A DNA stretch of 64,000 nucleotides, taken from NCBI GenBank assembly GCA_900163555.1, contig FUHX01000079.1:1-64000 (forward strand), in the 5' to 3' direction. The stretch is from Actinomycetales bacterium JB111 (GTDB lineage: Bacteria > Actinomycetota > Actinomycetes > Actinomycetales > Actinomycetaceae). The position numbers were made by a program, and so were the translations under genes. Positions 55,703 to 63,179 of this stretch are shown here, one piece after another. The stretch's first letter is position 1. Each line of letters starts with the position of its first letter. The notes under the pieces are model-generated. The model did not search any database. It saw nothing but the letters and a program-made list of their open reading frames with translations, and was not told the DNA's origin.

Positions 55703-56596
55703 ATGTCCACCGACCACACCCCTCGCCCGCTCGACGCGAGGCTCGAGAACGCCACCGTGCGCTACGGGCGCTCGCTCGCGCTCGACGCCGTCAGCTTCGA
55801 GATCGAGGCCGGCAGCATCACGGGCCTGCTCGGACGCAACGGCTCGGGCAAGACGACCGCGCTGTCCCTGCTCGCCGGGTTCCGCGCCCCGACCAGGGGC
55901 ACGGTCACCGTGGGCGGCGCCGACCCGATGGAGGAGGAGGACGTCGCGACCTCCGTCTGCCTCATCCGCGAGAGCGGGGACGTCATCGGCGACTCGAAGG
56001 TCGCCGACACCCTCGAGGTCGCAGAGATGTTCCGGCCCCGCTGGGACGGGGATCTCGCGCACGAGCTCCTCGACAGGTTCGAGGTCCCGCTGACCAAGAA
56101 CCCGAACGCGCTGTCCCGCGGGAAGCGGTCGGTGCTGGGCGCCGTCATCGGCCTGGCCACCCGCGCGCCGCTGACGATGCTCGACGAGATCCACCTCGGC
56201 ATGGACGCGGCCACCCGCGTGGAGTTCTACGAGCTGCTGCTCGCGGACTACGCGGCCCACCCGCGGACGATCGTCATCTCTTCGCACCTCATCTCCGAGG
56301 TCGAGACGATGCTCGAGAACGTCGTGCTCCTCGACCGCGGGTCGGTCGTCCACGCCGGCGGGACCGAGGAGCTGCGCTCCCAGGGCGCCACCCTCACCGG
56401 CCGCGACGACGCCGTGAGGCAGGCCGCCGCCGACATGCGCGTGCTCAGCGAGCGCACCCTCGGCCCCACCACCGAGCTCACCGTGCTCGCCGACCTCGAC
56501 GCGGCCGCGCGCGCCGACCTCGCCACCCGCGGGATCGGCGTCGGCCACGTCGGGCTCCAGGACGTCGTCATCCACATGACCGGGAGGACCTCATGA
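55703..56596 (+). CDS. ABC exporter ATPase 2
   Basis: A 297-residue ATPase: GLLGRNGSGKTTALSLLAGF, signature LSRGKRSVLGAVIGLA, LTMLDEIHLGMDAATR and VISSHLISEVE, then a ~75-residue C-terminal extension absent from ATPase 1. ATG with AAGGAGA upstream, 101 bp after the first membrane gene. Similarity to ATPase 1 suggests an ancient duplication of an ATPase-permease pair. Confidence 0.85.
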   Translation: MSTDHTPRPLDARLENATVRYGRSLALDAVSFEIEAGSITGLLGRNGSGKTTALSLLAGFRAPTRGTVTVGGADPMEEEDVATSVCLIRESGDVIGDSKVADTLEVAEMFRPRWDGDLAHELLDRFEVPLTKNPNALSRGKRSVLGAVIGLATRAPLTMLDEIHLGMDAATRVEFYELLLADYAAHPRTIVISSHLISEVETMLENVVLLDRGSVVHAGGTEELRSQGATLTGRDDAVRQAAADMRVLSERTLGPTTELTVLADLDAAARADLATRGIGVGHVGLQDVVIHMTGRTS

Positions 56597-57351
56597 GCGC
56601 CCCGACCAAGTACAGCAACGAGCCCCAGTGGGCGAAGGTCGCCGTGTGGACCACGGCCGTGCAGGCGTTGTTCGCCGGCTTCCTGCTCTTCGGCGCGGCG
56701 GTCGTCGTCGCCATCGTGCTCGGCCTCGTCAACCGCTTCGGCACGGTCGACATGTCGTTCGCCCAGTTCGCCGTGCAGATCGCCGTGTGGCTCTCCTTCG
56801 CCGTCGCGATCTCGTCCGTCTACACCCAGGCGAACGTCTTCATCGCCAACGGCGCCACGCGGCGGAACATCGCGATCGGCCAGATCGTGTCCGCCCCCGT
56901 GACCGGGCTCGTCTGGGCCGCGGCCTGCGTGCTGCTCGTCCGGATCGAGGGCCTCGTGTTCGACGGGTACGGCTGGACCCACGCCACGAACACCACCAAC
57001 GACGGCGTCGCCCAGCCGGCCGACTGGGATCGCGGCTGGTGGGTCTACCTCGCCCTGCTGACGATCCACCTGATGTGCGCGCAGCTCGGCGGCACGGTCA
57101 CCGGGATCGCGTTCTACCGGTTCACCGGCTCCGACTGGTACATCCCGATCGCGCTCCTCATCGTCACGGCGGCCGTGCCCGTCCTCGTGGTCGCCGGGGT
57201 GTTCAACCTGTCCTCGTACGGGGACCTGCACCGGTGGATCCACATGCCGATCGGGGTGGGACTCGGGATCTCCGCGCTCATCGCGGCCTACCTGTGTGTC
57301 CTGGCGTGGCTGTGGTTCCGCCGCATCCCGGTCCGCCCCAAGGTTGCCTGA
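56593..57351 (+). CDS. ABC exporter membrane subunit 2
   Basis: A 252-residue membrane protein with about six helices and GATRRNIAIGQIVSAP near residue 95. It overlaps ATPase 2 by ATGA. Paired with ATPase 2 it makes the second transporter of the GntR-controlled operon; both pairs may join in one complex. The operon ends at the nested palindrome downstream. Confidence 0.75.
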   Translation: MSAPTKYSNEPQWAKVAVWTTAVQALFAGFLLFGAAVVVAIVLGLVNRFGTVDMSFAQFAVQIAVWLSFAVAISSVYTQANVFIANGATRRNIAIGQIVSAPVTGLVWAAACVLLVRIEGLVFDGYGWTHATNTTNDGVAQPADWDRGWWVYLALLTIHLMCAQLGGTVTGIAFYRFTGSDWYIPIALLIVTAAVPVLVVAGVFNLSSYGDLHRWIHMPIGVGLGISALIAAYLCVLAWLWFRRIPVRPKVA

Positions 57352-57386
57352 CCGCGCCCTGCGCCCTGCGCCCCGTTTCCTCATTT

Positions 57387-57461
57387 CCGCGAGGTAGGAA
57401 CGGGACCTGCGAGGGAGGAACTACGAGTTCCTACCTCGGGCGCTCCGTTCCTACCTCGCGG
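57387..57461. repeat. Nested double palindrome after the ABC operon
   Basis: Outer arms CCGCGAGGTAGGAACGG (57387-57403) and its exact complement (57445-57461) enclose an inner hairpin (57410-57438, 13-bp arms with one mismatch, loop ACG). The core GAGG[T/G]AGGAAC thus occurs four times, two in each orientation. It can fold as a long stem or cruciform and may end the ABC operon. Confidence 0.8.
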
Positions 57462-57676
57462 GAGGGGGTGGGGGCGGACGTGGCCCACTGCACGTGGCTG
57501 CTCGGGCCGTGGCGGTTACGCGCGGCGCGATCTCTGGCACAATATGGGGCTGTACTCGGCATTCGTGGGCCCCTCTCTCCTGCGTGCGTCGCGTCCCGAG
57601 CAGCACCGTCGGTCCGACACCCACCGGCATGACGGCGCCGCTCACCTGAACCCCAGAACCAGGAGCACCCACTCAA
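57462..57676 (+). promoter_or_regulatory. rpsP promoter and leader region
   Basis: No gene is seen. A -10-like CACAAT at 57538-57543 (with GTTACG about 18 bp upstream) would give an mRNA leader of about 125 nt before rpsP, room for autoregulation by ribosomal protein. A ribosome site (AGGAGC) precedes the GTG. Confidence 0.45.
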
Positions 57677-58174
57677 GTGGCAGTCAAGATTCGACTTAAG
57701 CGATTCGGCAAGACCCACGCCCCGCAGTACCGCGTGGTCGTCATGGACTCGCGCACCCGCCGCGACGGCCGTGCGATCGAGGAGATCGGGCAGTACGAGC
57801 CCCTCCAGGAGCCCTCGCTCATCAACATCAACTCCGAGCGTGCGCAGTACTGGCTCGGTGTCGGCGCGCAGCCGACCGAGCAGGTCGCGAACCTGCTGAA
57901 GATCACCGGTGACTGGCAGACGTTCAAGGGCCTCCCGGGCGCCGAGGGCACGCTGCGCACCAAGGAGACCACGGAGGAGCAGGCCGCCGAGGCCCGCGCC
58001 GCCGCCGTCAAGGCCGCCGAGGACGCCGCCGAGAAGCGCAAGGCTGACGCGTCGGCCAAGAAGGCCGCCGAGGACGCCGAGGCTGCTGCCGCGGCCGCCG
58101 CCGAGGCAGCCGGTTCCGACGACGCCGCCGCCGAGGAGACCCCGGCCGAGGACGCTCCGGCCGAGGAGGCCTGA
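57677..58174 (+). CDS. rpsP: Ribosomal protein bS16
   Basis: A 165-residue S16: [40 protein letters not shown] is the canonical N-terminus. After the ~85-residue core, the C-terminal ~75 residues are an Ala/Glu/Lys-rich tail ([24 protein letters not shown] type), an extension common in actinobacteria but long here. Part of the 30S 5' domain. First gene of the rpsP-khpA-rimM-trmD-rplS cluster. GTG start. Confidence 0.95.
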
Positions 58175-58175
58175 C

Positions 58176-58415
58176 GTGCTCGCCGACGCCCTCGAGCACC
58201 TCGTGCGCGGGATCGTCGACAACCCTGACGACGTGCGCGTCACCGAGCGCTCGCTGCGCCGCGGGGACCTCCTCGAGGTTCGCGTGGACCCGACGGACCT
58301 CGGCCGCGTGATCGGCCGTCAGGGCCGCACCGCCAAGGCGCTGCGCACCGTTGTCGGCGCGCTGTCGACGACCGGCCCCGTGCGGGTCGACGTGGTCGAC
58401 ACCGACCGTCGCTGA
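58176..58415 (+). CDS. khpA: KH-domain RNA-binding protein KhpA
   Basis: A 79-residue single-KH protein with RVIGRQGRTAKALRTVVGA (GxxG loop GRQG) and flanking strands. KhpA/KhpB complexes bind many RNAs and affect cell shape and division in other bacteria. It begins 1 bp after the rpsP stop, as is standard in this cluster. Confidence 0.9.
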   Translation: MLADALEHLVRGIVDNPDDVRVTERSLRRGDLLEVRVDPTDLGRVIGRQGRTAKALRTVVGALSTTGPVRVDVVDTDRR

Positions 58416-58440
58416 CGGCCGGCTACGCACCATCCGCATC

Positions 58441-58469
58441 GGACCCGGCCCGCTCAGCGGGCCGGGTCC
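58441..58469 (+). terminator. Strong hairpin between khpA and rimM
   Basis: A perfect 13-bp stem GGACCCGGCCCGC / GCGGGCCGGGTCC with loop TCA. It may attenuate read-through so that rpsP-khpA are expressed above rimM-trmD. The remaining ~85 bp contain short CACGCCAGTCA repeats and AAGGAG before rimM. Confidence 0.7.
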
Positions 58470-58556
58470 GGCGCGTTTCACCGGGCGGACGCCTCCGCAC
58501 CTCACGCCAGTCAAGCCTTCACGCCAGTCAGGCCCACACGCAGTCAAGGAGTTCTC

Positions 58557-59099
<543 letters not shown>

Positions 59100-59100
59100 C

Positions 59101-60450
59101 GTGCGCATCGACGTCGTGACGATCTTCCCGGACTACCTCGCGCCGCTGGACCTCAGCCTCATCGGCAAGGCGCGCGCGGACGGGCTCGTGACGATCGGTG
59201 TGCACGACCTGCGGGACGTCACGACGGACCGCCACCGGACGGTCGACGACACGCCGTCGGGCGGGGGAGCGGGCATGGTCATGCGCGCCGACGTCTGGGG
59301 CCAGGCGCTCGACCCACTGCTCGCGGACGGCGGCACGCTCGCCATCCCCACGCCGTCCGGCGCCCCGCTCACGCAGCGCGCCGTCGAGAAGCTCGCCGCG
59401 TCCGGCGGGCCGCTCGTCATCGCCTGTGGCCGCTACGAGGGCATCGACGCGCGCGTGGCCGAGCACTACGCGAGCCGCGACGACGTCACGGTCATGGAGT
59501 TCTCGCTCGGCGACTACGTCCTCAACGGCGGCGAGGTCGCCGCGCTGGCCCTTACCGAGGGCGTCGTGCGCCTGCTGCCGGGCGTCGTCGGGAACCCGGA
59601 CTCGCTCGAGGAGGAGTCCCACGCCGGCGACGGGACCCTCGAATACCCCGTGTACACGCGCCCCGAGACGTGGCGCGGGCTCGAGATCCCCGCCGTCCTC
59701 ACCTCCGGCGACCACGGCGCCGCCGCGGCCTGGCGCCGCGAGCAGTCCCTCGCCCGCACGGCCGCACGCCGACCGGACATCCTGCACTCCCTCGACGTCG
59801 ACGCCCTGGACCCCGCCGACCGCCGCACCCTCGCCTCGCTCGGCTACGTGGTGCCGTCGGGAGCCGGGTCCCCGGTGCCGGTCACCGTCCGCGATGCCAC
59901 CCCCGCCGACGGCGACGCGGTCGCCGCGCTCGCGGCCCTCACCTTCCCGCTGGCGTGCCCGCCGGGCACGAGCCAGGAGGACATCGACAGCTTCGTCGAC
60001 ACGCACCTCACGCCGCGGGCGATGGCGGAGCACGCCGAGCGGGCGACGTCGGTCCTGCGGGTCGCGTGGGTGGGGGAGGCCGCCGTCGGGTACACGCTCA
60101 GCCTGCTGCCGACGACGGTCGACGAGCCGCCCTACGCGGCTGACGTCGCGGCCTGCGTGACCGCGCGCCCGGCGGCCGAGCTGTCCAAGGTGTACGTGCT
60201 GCCGGAGTACATGGGCTCCGGGCTCGCCTCGCTGCTCATCGCCGACGCCGGTCGGGCCGTGCGCGCGGCGCGCGTGGAGGGCGAGCCGGTCGCCGCGCTC
60301 TGGCTCGGCACGAACGGCGGCAACAAGCGCGCCCAGAAGGCGTACCGGCGCTCCGGCTTCACCCGCGCGGGCCGGCGGACGTTCCGGGTCGGGGAGACGA
60401 CCCACTCCGACGTCGTGATGGTGCTCGACCTCACGCGCGAGGGCGTCTGA
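59101..60450 (+). CDS. trmD: TrmD tRNA (m1G37) methyltransferase fused to a GNAT domain
   Basis: A 449-residue fusion in one open frame. Residues 1-~245 are TrmD: MRIDVVTIFPDYL, GGGAGMVMRADV, knot CGRYEGIDARV and FSLGDYVLNGGEVAAL, and YTRPETWRGLEIPAVLTSGDH. The catalytic Asp of TrmD (E. coli D169, in an EDS context) is Glu172 here (SLEEESH). Residues ~261-449 are a GNAT acetyltransferase domain (VTVRDATPADGDAVAAL at its start; acetyl-CoA-binding VYVLPEYMGSGLASLLI; NKRAQKAYRRSGF). Expected roles: m1G37 formation to prevent frameshifting, plus acetylation of an unknown target. GTG start, 1 bp after rimM. Confidence 0.9.
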   Translation: MRIDVVTIFPDYLAPLDLSLIGKARADGLVTIGVHDLRDVTTDRHRTVDDTPSGGGAGMVMRADVWGQALDPLLADGGTLAIPTPSGAPLTQRAVEKLAASGGPLVIACGRYEGIDARVAEHYASRDDVTVMEFSLGDYVLNGGEVAALALTEGVVRLLPGVVGNPDSLEEESHAGDGTLEYPVYTRPETWRGLEIPAVLTSGDHGAAAAWRREQSLARTAARRPDILHSLDVDALDPADRRTLASLGYVVPSGAGSPVPVTVRDATPADGDAVAALAALTFPLACPPGTSQEDIDSFVDTHLTPRAMAEHAERATSVLRVAWVGEAAVGYTLSLLPTTVDEPPYAADVAACVTARPAAELSKVYVLPEYMGSGLASLLIADAGRAVRAARVEGEPVAALWLGTNGGNKRAQKAYRRSGFTRAGRRTFRVGETTHSDVVMVLDLTREGV

Positions 60451-60627
60451 ACCCCCTGGGGCGCGGGGGCTCGGCTGTGGCAGGATGGACAGGCTTGCGC
60501 GGCCATGTGCCGCGGCCGATCTCCTGCCGCAGGGGGCGACGGCCTTGAGCACGCACCACCAGACGAACGGCGCGATGCGCCACCATGCCGCCCGTGACCT
60601 GCGCGCACGGACGAAGGAGTGAACGAT

Positions 60628-60975
60628 ATGCAGACTCTGGACTTCATCGACGACAAGTCGAAGCGCTCGGACGTCCCCGACTTCCGCGCCGGCGACACCG
60701 TCAAGGTCAACGTGAAGGTCGTCGAGGGCACCCGCTCGCGCGTGCAGGTCTTCCAGGGCGTCGTCATCGGCCGTCAGGGCAAGGGCGTCCGCGAGACGTT
60801 CACGGTCCGCAAGGTGAGCTTCGGCGTCGGCGTCGAGCGCACCTTCCCGGTCCACGCCCCGTCGATCGACTCGATCGAGCTCGTCAGCCGCGGCATCGTG
60901 CGCCGCGCCAAGCTGTACTACCTGCGCGAGCTGCGCGGCAAGGCGGCCAAGATCCGCGAGAAGCGCGTCAACTGA
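60628..60975 (+). CDS. rplS: Ribosomal protein bL19
   Basis: A 115-residue L19: [51 protein letters not shown], and [23 protein letters not shown]. It sits at the 30S-50S interface. The ATG at 60628 has AAGGAGTGA 6 nt upstream; a GTG at 60619 is less likely. The 177-bp gap after trmD is long enough for a separate promoter and leader; a CAGGAT -10-like hexamer is near 60481. Confidence 0.95.
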
Positions 60976-61012
60976 TCTCGCTCCACCTCGCCCCGGCGAG
61001 GAATGTGTCGAA

Positions 61013-61039
61013 CGCCCGGCGGACATCGTCCGCCGGGCG
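61013..61039 (+). terminator. Terminator after rplS
   Basis: A perfect 12-bp stem CGCCCGGCGGAC / GTCCGCCGGGCG with loop ATC lies 37 bp past the rplS stop. A -10-like TAGTGT for lepB follows near 61055. Confidence 0.75.
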
Positions 61040-61126
61040 TCGCCATGTCCGGGATAGTGTGATCGGCGTCGGCGACACGGACGCCGGTCGGCCGGGGCCC
61101 CTCCCGAGCCGCATCGAGGAGGACCG

Positions 61127-62053
61127 ATGACCGACCCGCGCGACCCGAGTGCGCCGACGCCCGAGCAGGCGCCCGACGCCGGTCGCCAGGGTCTGAGCGG
61201 CTCGCGCGACGGTGCGCGGATCGAGCGGGACGATGCCGACGGCGAACGGGGAGACGTGTCGGAGCACAGGGCCGGTGCAGAGCACCACACGGAAGCGGGG
61301 CACGGGACGTCCGCCGGGCACGCGGCGTCCTCGGAGGGCGCTCACCGTGAGCGGGACGGCTCCCGACGACGGCGCCGACGTTCGTCCGGCATCCTCGCCT
61401 GGGTCCGCGAGACCGCCATCGTGGTGGTCTGCGCGCTCGTGCTGTCCGTCCTCATCAAGACCTTCCTCGTCCAGGCCTTCTACATCCCCTCGGGCTCCAT
61501 GGAGGAGACCCTCGAGATCGGCGACCGCATCATGGTCAGCAAGCTGACCCCGGGGCTCACCGACGTCGAGCGCGGCGACATCGTGGTCTTCGTCGACCCG
61601 GGCGGCTGGCTCGACGACGTGCCGGAGAACGACGGCGGGCCCGTGCGCAACGCGATCACCGAGGCGCTGACCTTCGTCGGCATCTACCCGCAGGACGCCG
61701 GGCACCACCTCATCAAGCGGGTCATCGGGCTGCCCGGCGACACGGTGGCCTGCTGCACGGCAGACGGCAACCTCACGGTCAACGGGGTCGAGATCGACGA
61801 GCCGTACCTCGCGCCCGGCGCCGCCCCCTCCCGGATGGAGTTCGAGATCGTCGTGCCCGAGGACTCCCTGTGGGTCATGGGCGACAACCGGGACAACTCC
61901 GCTGACTCCCGCGCCCACCTGGGCCAGCCGGGAGGCCCGTTCGTCCCCATCGACAACGTGGTGGGCACGGCCTTCGTGACCGTGTGGCCGCTCAGCAACA
62001 TCACCTGGCACTCGGACCCGGACGAGACCTTCGATCCGGTTCCCGACCCGTGA
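61127..62053 (+). CDS. lepB: Signal peptidase I
   Basis: A 308-residue type I signal peptidase. A long hydrophilic cytoplasmic N-terminus (~85 residues, acidic/His-rich, ending in an RRRRRR run) precedes one membrane helix (AIVVVCALVLSVLIKTFLV). The catalytic Ser is in FYIPSGSMEETL and the Lys in HLIKRVIGLPGD, with MGDNRDNSADSR in the C-terminal box. It removes secretory signal peptides outside the membrane. Overlaps rnhB by GTGA. Confidence 0.93.
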   Translation: MTDPRDPSAPTPEQAPDAGRQGLSGSRDGARIERDDADGERGDVSEHRAGAEHHTEAGHGTSAGHAASSEGAHRERDGSRRRRRRSSGILAWVRETAIVVVCALVLSVLIKTFLVQAFYIPSGSMEETLEIGDRIMVSKLTPGLTDVERGDIVVFVDPGGWLDDVPENDGGPVRNAITEALTFVGIYPQDAGHHLIKRVIGLPGDTVACCTADGNLTVNGVEIDEPYLAPGAAPSRMEFEIVVPEDSLWVMGDNRDNSADSRAHLGQPGGPFVPIDNVVGTAFVTVWPLSNITWHSDPDETFDPVPDP

Positions 62054-62874
62054 CCGGCGCCCGCCCGGCGGGCCGCCGCCCGGTCGCCGGTCAGGCTTCT
62101 GCCGGCCCGCCCGCCTCCGGCCCTCTCGCCTCCGGCCCGGCCTCCGCCGCTCAGCCCGCAGCCGCCTCCGGTCCGGCCGCCTCCGGCCCCGACCTCACCC
62201 ACGAGTTCGACCTCCTTTCGGCCTGCGCGCCGGGCGGCGTCGTCCTCGGTGTCGACGAGGTCGGCAGGGGAGCGCTCGCCGGCCCCGTGACGGTCGGCGT
62301 CTGCGCGATCGGCGCGGACGCCGGGGAGATCCCCGCCGGCCTGAACGACTCCAAGATGCTCAGCCCGGCCGCCCGCGAGGCCCTCGTGGGGCCGAGCCGG
62401 TCCTGGGCGGTGAGCATCGGCGTCGGGCACGGAACTCCGCAGGAGATCGACTCCCTCGGGATCATGGCCGCCCAGCGCCTGGCCGCCGGCCGCGCGCTCG
62501 CCCAGGTGCTCGCCGGCCTTGCGGGGCGCCCCGTGGTCGCGACGATCCTCGACGGCACCCACAACTGGCTCGCCGTCCCCGACGACCTGTTCGCATCCGC
62601 CGACGACCCCTGGCCCACGCCGGTGACCACGGTCGTCAAGGGCGACATGCGGTGCGCGTCCGTGGCCGCCGCGAGCGTCGTGGCGAAGGTCGAGCGCGAC
62701 GGCCTGATGACGGAGGCGTCCGCGCTCCCGGAGTTCGCCCCCTACGGCCTGGACGGCAACAAGGGATACGGCTCCACGAAGCACCGCGACGCGATCGCCG
62801 CGTTCGGCCCGAGCGCGCTGCACCGTGTCTCATGGCGACTGCCCGCCCGCCAAGAGGGCATGATGGCCCCGTGA
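62050..62874 (+). CDS. rnhB: Ribonuclease HII
   Basis: A 274-residue RNase HII: the Asp-Glu of GVDEVGRGALAGPV, LNDSKMLSPAAREAL, the catalytic Asp in ATILDGTHNWL and VKGDMRCASVAAASVVAKVERD. About 50 residues of Ala/Ser/Pro-rich sequence precede the core. The GTG at 62050 overlaps the lepB stop; initiation farther inside is possible because the N-terminus is low-complexity. It removes ribonucleotides from DNA. Confidence 0.9.
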   Translation: MTGARPAGRRPVAGQASAGPPASGPLASGPASAAQPAAASGPAASGPDLTHEFDLLSACAPGGVVLGVDEVGRGALAGPVTVGVCAIGADAGEIPAGLNDSKMLSPAAREALVGPSRSWAVSIGVGHGTPQEIDSLGIMAAQRLAAGRALAQVLAGLAGRPVVATILDGTHNWLAVPDDLFASADDPWPTPVTTVVKGDMRCASVAAASVVAKVERDGLMTEASALPEFAPYGLDGNKGYGSTKHRDAIAAFGPSALHRVSWRLPARQEGMMAP

Positions 62875-63179
62875 GTGCAGAGGACCTGGAGAACTACGAG
62901 ACCGATCTCGAGCTCGCGTTGTACCGCGAGTACCGGGATGTGGTGAACCTGTTCACCTACGTCGTCGAGACCGAGCGGCGCTTCTACCTGTGCAACTCGG
63001 TTGACGTGCAGGTGCGCAACGCCGGCGGCGACGTCTTCTTCGAGCTCAACCTCTCCGACGCCTGGGTGTGGGACGTCTACCGCTCTGCCAGGTTCGTGAA
63101 GAACGTGCGGGTCGTGACGTTCAAGGACATCAACGTCGAGGAGCTCAACCAGGCGGACATCAAGCTCCCCGAGGTCTGA
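62871..63179 (+). CDS. DUF2469-family protein
   Basis: A 102-residue protein matching the actinobacterial DUF2469 family nearly end to end: SAEDLENYETDLELALYREYRDVV, VVETERRFYLCNSVDVQVR, YFELNLSDAWVWDVYR-type and ARFVKNVRVVTFKDINVEEL. It always follows rnhB in actinobacteria; function unknown. Starts GTG overlapping the rnhB stop. The next 171 bp (63180-63350) show no gene. Confidence 0.9.
   Translation: MSAEDLENYETDLELALYREYRDVVNLFTYVVETERRFYLCNSVDVQVRNAGGDVFFELNLSDAWVWDVYRSARFVKNVRVVTFKDINVEELNQADIKLPEV

Follow-up and report, generated by a model that had tools for sequence, protein, structure and literature searches.

The gene at 59101-60450 encodes a TrmD and a GNAT domain in one reading frame, and we consider it probable that its product is a genuine, lineage-wide bifunctional protein in which TrmD and GNAT work independently, the outcome of a single fusion that brings a benefit of co-expression. 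The gene lies on the forward strand of the 64,000-nucleotide stretch of DNA that was analyzed (the window), opens with GTG, has no internal stop, and encodes 449 residues; the gene order around it, rimM-trmD-rplS, is typical of TrmD (Table 1). An Rfam search of 56500-63000 returned nothing at the gathering threshold. An earlier note on this DNA had described an unbroken frame of 449 residues passing from TrmD into a GNAT domain at about residue 261. The frame was borne out by the stop-free ORF and by both domains scoring over their model cut-offs, and the proposed start fits the data, as the solved acetyltransferase 8osp aligns over residues 268-441 and the first GNAT strand in the structural model spans residues 262-265.

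Table 1. Coordinates of the fused gene's parts, key codons, and neighboring genes in the window.
Feature	Position	Strand	Basis or remark
TrmD (m1G37 methyltransferase), residues 1-231	59101..59793	+	NF000648 and TIGR00088 over cut-off; PF01746
TrmD/GNAT junction, residues 232-261	59794..59883	+	stop-free; pLDDT of model
PaiA-class GNAT acetyltransferase domain (predicted), residues 262-449	59884..60447	+	profile against PDB; model
Glu172 codon, equivalent to E. coli Asp169 site	59614..59616	+	alignment with mycobacterial TrmD
Glu360 codon, equivalent to LcGNAT Glu92	60178..60180	+	alignment; role per PMC10416765
Tyr365 codon, equivalent to LcGNAT Tyr97	60193..60195	+	alignment
Acetyl-CoA P-loop region M371-G-S-G-L-A376	60211..60228	+	Met371 codon at 60211-60213
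Tyr415 codon, equivalent to Tyr142 of LcGNAT and PaiA	60343..60345	+	alignment
rpsP (ribosomal protein S16), upstream neighbor	57677..58174	+	
rimM, immediately 5' of trmD	58557..59099	+	1 base separates rimM stop from trmD start
rplS (ribosomal protein L19), 3' of fused gene	60619..60975	+	starts 168 bases after fused ORF

TrmD occurs in almost all bacteria, as a rule with a single function, and is a drug target. The TrmD half of the fused protein scored above the cut-offs of two NCBIfam equivalogs, NF000648 (275.8 bits; cut-off 220) and TIGR00088 (217.7 bits; cut-off 195), and also matched PF01746 in a Pfam search. A second trmD, which the earlier note had suggested looking for, was not found on search of the window's genome (3.26 Mb in 85 contigs, 98% complete), and the fused copy is the sole TrmD detected there.

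The same note had placed a Glu where TrmD has its catalytic Asp, and in our alignment Glu172 indeed falls opposite the Asp of the DSH motif of solved mycobacterial TrmDs, leaving an acidic residue at the Asp169 site. Across the order, every locus compared has Glu here (117/117): 77 distinct loci, fused and unfused, from the window's family f1 and families f12, f13, and f8, plus 40 drawn from other families. Outside the order, among the best 30 loci from a draw of 149 genomes across the phylum, a tally biased toward near relatives, Asp was found in all seven loci of the same class, and 18 others comprised 17 Glu and one Asp. According to the available text of PMC8643618, E. coli TrmD with Glu at position 169 equals the wild-type Asp enzyme in activity, and all D169A populations recovered through A169E. 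The concern that the Asp-to-Glu change threatens methylation was not upheld, and an active site tuned or crippled by it was ruled out by the order-wide Glu and the activity of E169. Since Glu occurs in fused and unfused loci and E169 is active in E. coli, Glu172 is, judged from the alignments, a normal and harmless residue in this order, independent of the fusion and with no sign of impaired methylation.

The second half of the protein belongs to the GNAT superfamily by two Pfam models, PF00583 (26.8 bits over residues 310-420; cut-off 20.7) and PF13508 (27.8 bits; cut-off 27). Compared against the PDB, a profile of 29 fused GNAT sequences (profile A1) gave 8osp (E 1.9e-27), 1tiq (8.9e-25), and 4e2a (3e-17) as best matches. 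The first of these is LcGNAT, which acetylates canavanine and not arginine, depends on Glu92, Tyr97, and Tyr142 for catalysis, and has a degenerate P-loop common to its polyamine-class homologues (available text of PMC10416765). All three catalytic positions of the PaiA class are filled in the window protein (E360, Y365, and Y415). The two tyrosines are kept in all 61 fused copies compared and in all 69 standalone copies, the latter drawn from the best 80 of 568 named relatives; Glu360 is kept in 47 of the fused copies (Tyr in 14) and, within the same best 80 of 568, in 67 of the standalone ones (Gln in 2). Met371 at the first P-loop position is unique among the 61 fused copies, the others having Arg, His, or Gln.

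Modeling of the whole protein yielded a GNAT half with block means of 87-98 in pLDDT and 10-residue blocks of 86-95 over residues 231-260, while pLDDT fell below 50 at residues 50-57 and 165-194. The latter segment is probably, by analogy, the TrmD interdomain linker, which in TrmDs that have been studied gains order when tRNA binds (PMC9508554, as far as its text was available). Because the pTM was 0.67, the relative placing of the domains is unsure. In a structure search with this model the top 50 rows were all TrmD, and the GNAT domain was therefore modeled separately, with a mean pLDDT of 96.2. Foldseek then ranked 8osp, 1tiq, and 4e2a highest, and VIA-align placed 1tiq in its top row (Z 21.2, rmsd 2.4, 173 residues aligned) with 1wk4, 8osp, 3fix, and 3f0a within 1. 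By profile, predicted fold, and catalytic residues the GNAT domain is thus assigned to the PaiA class, and it looks catalytically competent, a predicted acetyltransferase. Most fused GNATs carry a negative net charge (the mean is -3.6, and 7 of 61 are positive), which argues weakly against direct tRNA binding.

The fusion is present throughout the window's family. Nearly every family genome (150 of 151) matched the full protein, and 104 of them had a top match covering both domains (from residue ≤3 to ≥439), the remainder being split or partial; the window's genome is the sole representative of its genus among the genomes scanned. At E ≤1e-15, profile A1 detected a GNAT match in 138 of the 151 genomes, of which 137 had their best GNAT match overlapping the TrmD match or at most 262 bases away on the same contig; in the exception, G006, the GNAT opens one contig and TrmD ends another. 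That the junction reflects a sequencing error or a frameshift was ruled out because TrmD and GNAT adjoin across the family in this way and also share a single frame in the fused loci of relatives that were read.

The 13 family genomes without a GNAT match include two with an unfused TrmD and no GNAT tail (G013 and G025), one with neither GNAT nor TrmD match (G115), and G097 and G122. The others account for eight loci in which TrmD carries a divergent or decayed-looking GNAT tail (L035-L037 in genus g24, L038, L043-L045 in g20, and L046 in g31), which form a natural loss series. In 22 of the 151 genomes the GNAT profile matched at a second site at E ≤1e-15, usually with a weaker score (for example G116:C2:7788-8306, G056:C8:7534-8037, and G038:C1:852244-852735), so that GNAT is not strictly single-copy in the family. 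Up to 22 candidates were scored per genome in the family and order scans, and copy numbers are lower bounds.

As the earlier note had proposed to check, relatives beyond the family carry the same fusion. A scan of 149 genomes of the order at E ≤1e-20 identified 49 with a GNAT, one match each: 22 were fused, confined to families f1 (the window's, which includes Georgenia subflava), f12, and f13 (which includes Occultella glacieicola), and 27 were standalone, spread across eight other families. TrmD sits elsewhere in the 23 of these 27 genomes for which its place was listed, about 23 kb off in one of them (G218). The phylum draw of 149 genomes, which contained no other f1, f12, or f13 genome, gave a full-length match in a single genome, that of the window. 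Among named relatives, the best 80 of 568 comprised 11 fused loci (four from Georgenia, two from Occultella, Ruaniaceae bacterium KH17, and four MAGs) and 69 standalone loci, and within flanks of up to 4 kb on each side of these 69 no TrmD was found.

To place the fused domains among their relatives, a tree was computed from the 61 fused GNATs and the 69 standalone ones (the latter from the best 80 of 568 named relatives), leaving out the 11 named fused loci (presumed duplicates of genomes with G handles), the duplicates L001 and L053, loci in which GNAT was not matched, and copies whose length fell outside 150-290 residues. On a quick tree the fused label required three changes rather than a single one, which counts against one origin; with shuffled labels the mean was 43. 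When all fused GNATs were constrained to one clade, the likelihood was above that of the free search, with a p-AU of 0.711, and a single fusion origin is therefore allowed, not proven. In 12 hand-chosen pairs pN/pS was below 1 throughout, at 0.04-0.44 for GNAT and 0.02-0.32 for TrmD, and the GNAT value exceeded that of TrmD in all 12, with synonymous change saturated in four. By these ratios, the GNAT domain is kept by purifying selection, more loosely than TrmD.

We hypothesize a single joining of a GNAT gene to trmD, in a shared ancestor of the window's family (with Georgenia) and families f12 and f13, followed by loss or decay of the fused GNAT in a few lineages. In the TrmD half, m1G37 would be formed as usual, with Glu172 in the role of Asp169. 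The retention of TrmD where the GNAT is absent, divergent, or decayed suggests, at the level of sequence, that methylation can proceed without the GNAT. The link that the earlier note had raised between m1G37 formation and acetylation of a ribosomal protein or of tRNA is conjecture. We infer that the GNAT half moves an acetyl group from acetyl-CoA onto an amine, independently and not in the service of methylation; its acceptor would most likely resemble those of the closest studied relatives, being a small molecule that is cationic or amino-acid-like. The benefit of the fusion, we infer further, most likely lies in steady co-expression from a ribosomal-protein operon and not in channeling. Weighing against this account are the Tyr in place of the catalytic Glu in 14 of 61 fused copies, the unusual Met371 of the window protein, the 13 family genomes without a GNAT match, the second matches in 22, and the higher pN/pS of the GNAT.

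A different target, a ribosomal or tRNA-associated protein for which the TrmD dimer would position the GNAT, is possible but on balance unlikely. It would suit the place of the fused gene between rimM and rplS, although the trmD operon context is TrmD's own. The RimI model for S18 N-acetylation (TIGR01575) was matched weakly by 26 of the 29 members of profile A1, with the window member at 23.8 bits, below the cut-off of 86.4. Among the 69 standalone loci from the best 80 of 568 named relatives, nine have rplA, encoding ribosomal protein L1, within 4 kb of the GNAT, while 60 have no rplA in their flanks. Apart from groups from related genera, rplA was the only repeat followed in the standalone neighborhoods; it lies within about 200 bases of the GNAT in eight of the nine loci and about 2.4 kb away in L122. 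The nine loci with rplA within 4 kb are L159:3233-3919, L088, L101, L118, L122, L126, L137, L144, and L158. Against a protein target, too, the best solved relatives use small molecules, canavanine in one case and spermidine or spermine in the other.

That the domain is a strict PaiA-type spermidine/spermine acetyltransferase, joined to TrmD on account of the binding of polyamines to tRNA, appears decidedly unlikely. The strict NCBIfam equivalog for this activity, SpmdActasePaiA, matched all 29 members of profile A1, yet the window member reached 32.8 bits, far below the cut-off of 250. The solved enzyme 1tiq came second in the PDB sequence search and in the top structural row, but the canavanine enzyme has the identical fold and residues, and because these are held in common the PaiA class does not give the substrate. 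Spermidine itself is disfavored by the rarity of its synthase in the family: of 41 family genomes, two had PF01564 above cut-off and five had it at E ≤0.001, the genome of the window gave no PF01564 match, and the control was positive in 11 of 14 named genomes. Import of polyamines is possible.

A mainly structural or regulatory role of the GNAT for TrmD, in stability, dimer formation, or tRNA contacts, with catalysis secondary or absent, we regard as highly unlikely. In its favor, the catalytic Glu is altered in 14 of 61 copies and the eight loci described above still carry a GNAT-like tail that has diverged or decayed; against it, all 61 copies retain both catalytic tyrosines and the TrmDs of G013 and G025 do without a GNAT tail. 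There is, finally, only the faintest likelihood that the TrmD dimer serves as a tRNA anchor while the GNAT acetylates a cargo of TrmD's tRNA substrates, such as a wrong amino acid or an analogue on aminoacyl-tRNA, an arrangement that is modeled on canavanine detoxification for arginine tRNA and that would, if true, make a combined decoding-fidelity enzyme. Toxins that acetylate aminoacyl-tRNA exist; none is named among the top 50 structural rows, which excludes nothing.

On our reading, the fused protein would be two independent enzymes in one chain. A family-wide acetyltransferase fusion would give TrmD of these bacteria an additional job that can be tested, and it pairs a widespread, uncharacterized GNAT of Actinobacteria with a partner that is already known. 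As the GNAT exists in fused, standalone, and lost versions, these constitute a natural experiment.

Fusions of TrmD are already known, and domain-architecture databases may list the TrmD-GNAT combination. Within open-license literature, covered mostly by titles and the starts of abstracts, no paper describing a TrmD-GNAT fusion was recognized, and the available text of PMC1282579 does not mention one. A 2022 review of SPOUT enzymes gives characterized TrmD C-terminal domains as about 74-95 residues, and neither GNAT nor acetyltransferase occurs in its main text as available (PMC9508554).

Compared with TrmD as generally described (tRNA m1G37 methyltransferase, COG0336), the window protein has in common the whole core, a single detected copy, the rimM-trmD-rplS order, and scores above the equivalog cut-offs; it differs in the added GNAT of about 190 residues and in the Glu at the Asp169 site, the latter as in all loci of the order compared. 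With the PaiA-class enzymes LcGNAT (8osp, canavanine) and Bacillus subtilis PaiA (1tiq), the GNAT half shares the predicted fold, the equivalents of Glu92, Tyr97, and Tyr142, and an off-consensus P-loop, whereas those enzymes are free-standing Firmicutes proteins that are 16-23% identical to it in structural alignments. Closer in sequence are the standalone actinobacterial GNATs, such as those of Isoptericola (L157), Rhodococcus (L091), and Mycolicibacterium (L102): across 34 sequences they have 36-48% identity to the window GNAT and share both catalytic tyrosines, but they are unfused and lie elsewhere in the genome, with one match each in the order scan. The nearest precedent in architecture is TrmD-Tm1570, found in Calditerrivibrio nitroreducens (PMC11187310) and in Deltaproteobacteria (PMC1829167), as far as the available texts describe it. 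There, as here, a second enzyme domain follows TrmD at the C-terminus. The Tm1570 partner is a second SPOUT methyltransferase (PF09936/COG4752), and PF09936 is absent from the five families matched at E ≤0.001 in our Pfam search of the fused protein, in which the partner is instead a predicted acetyltransferase.
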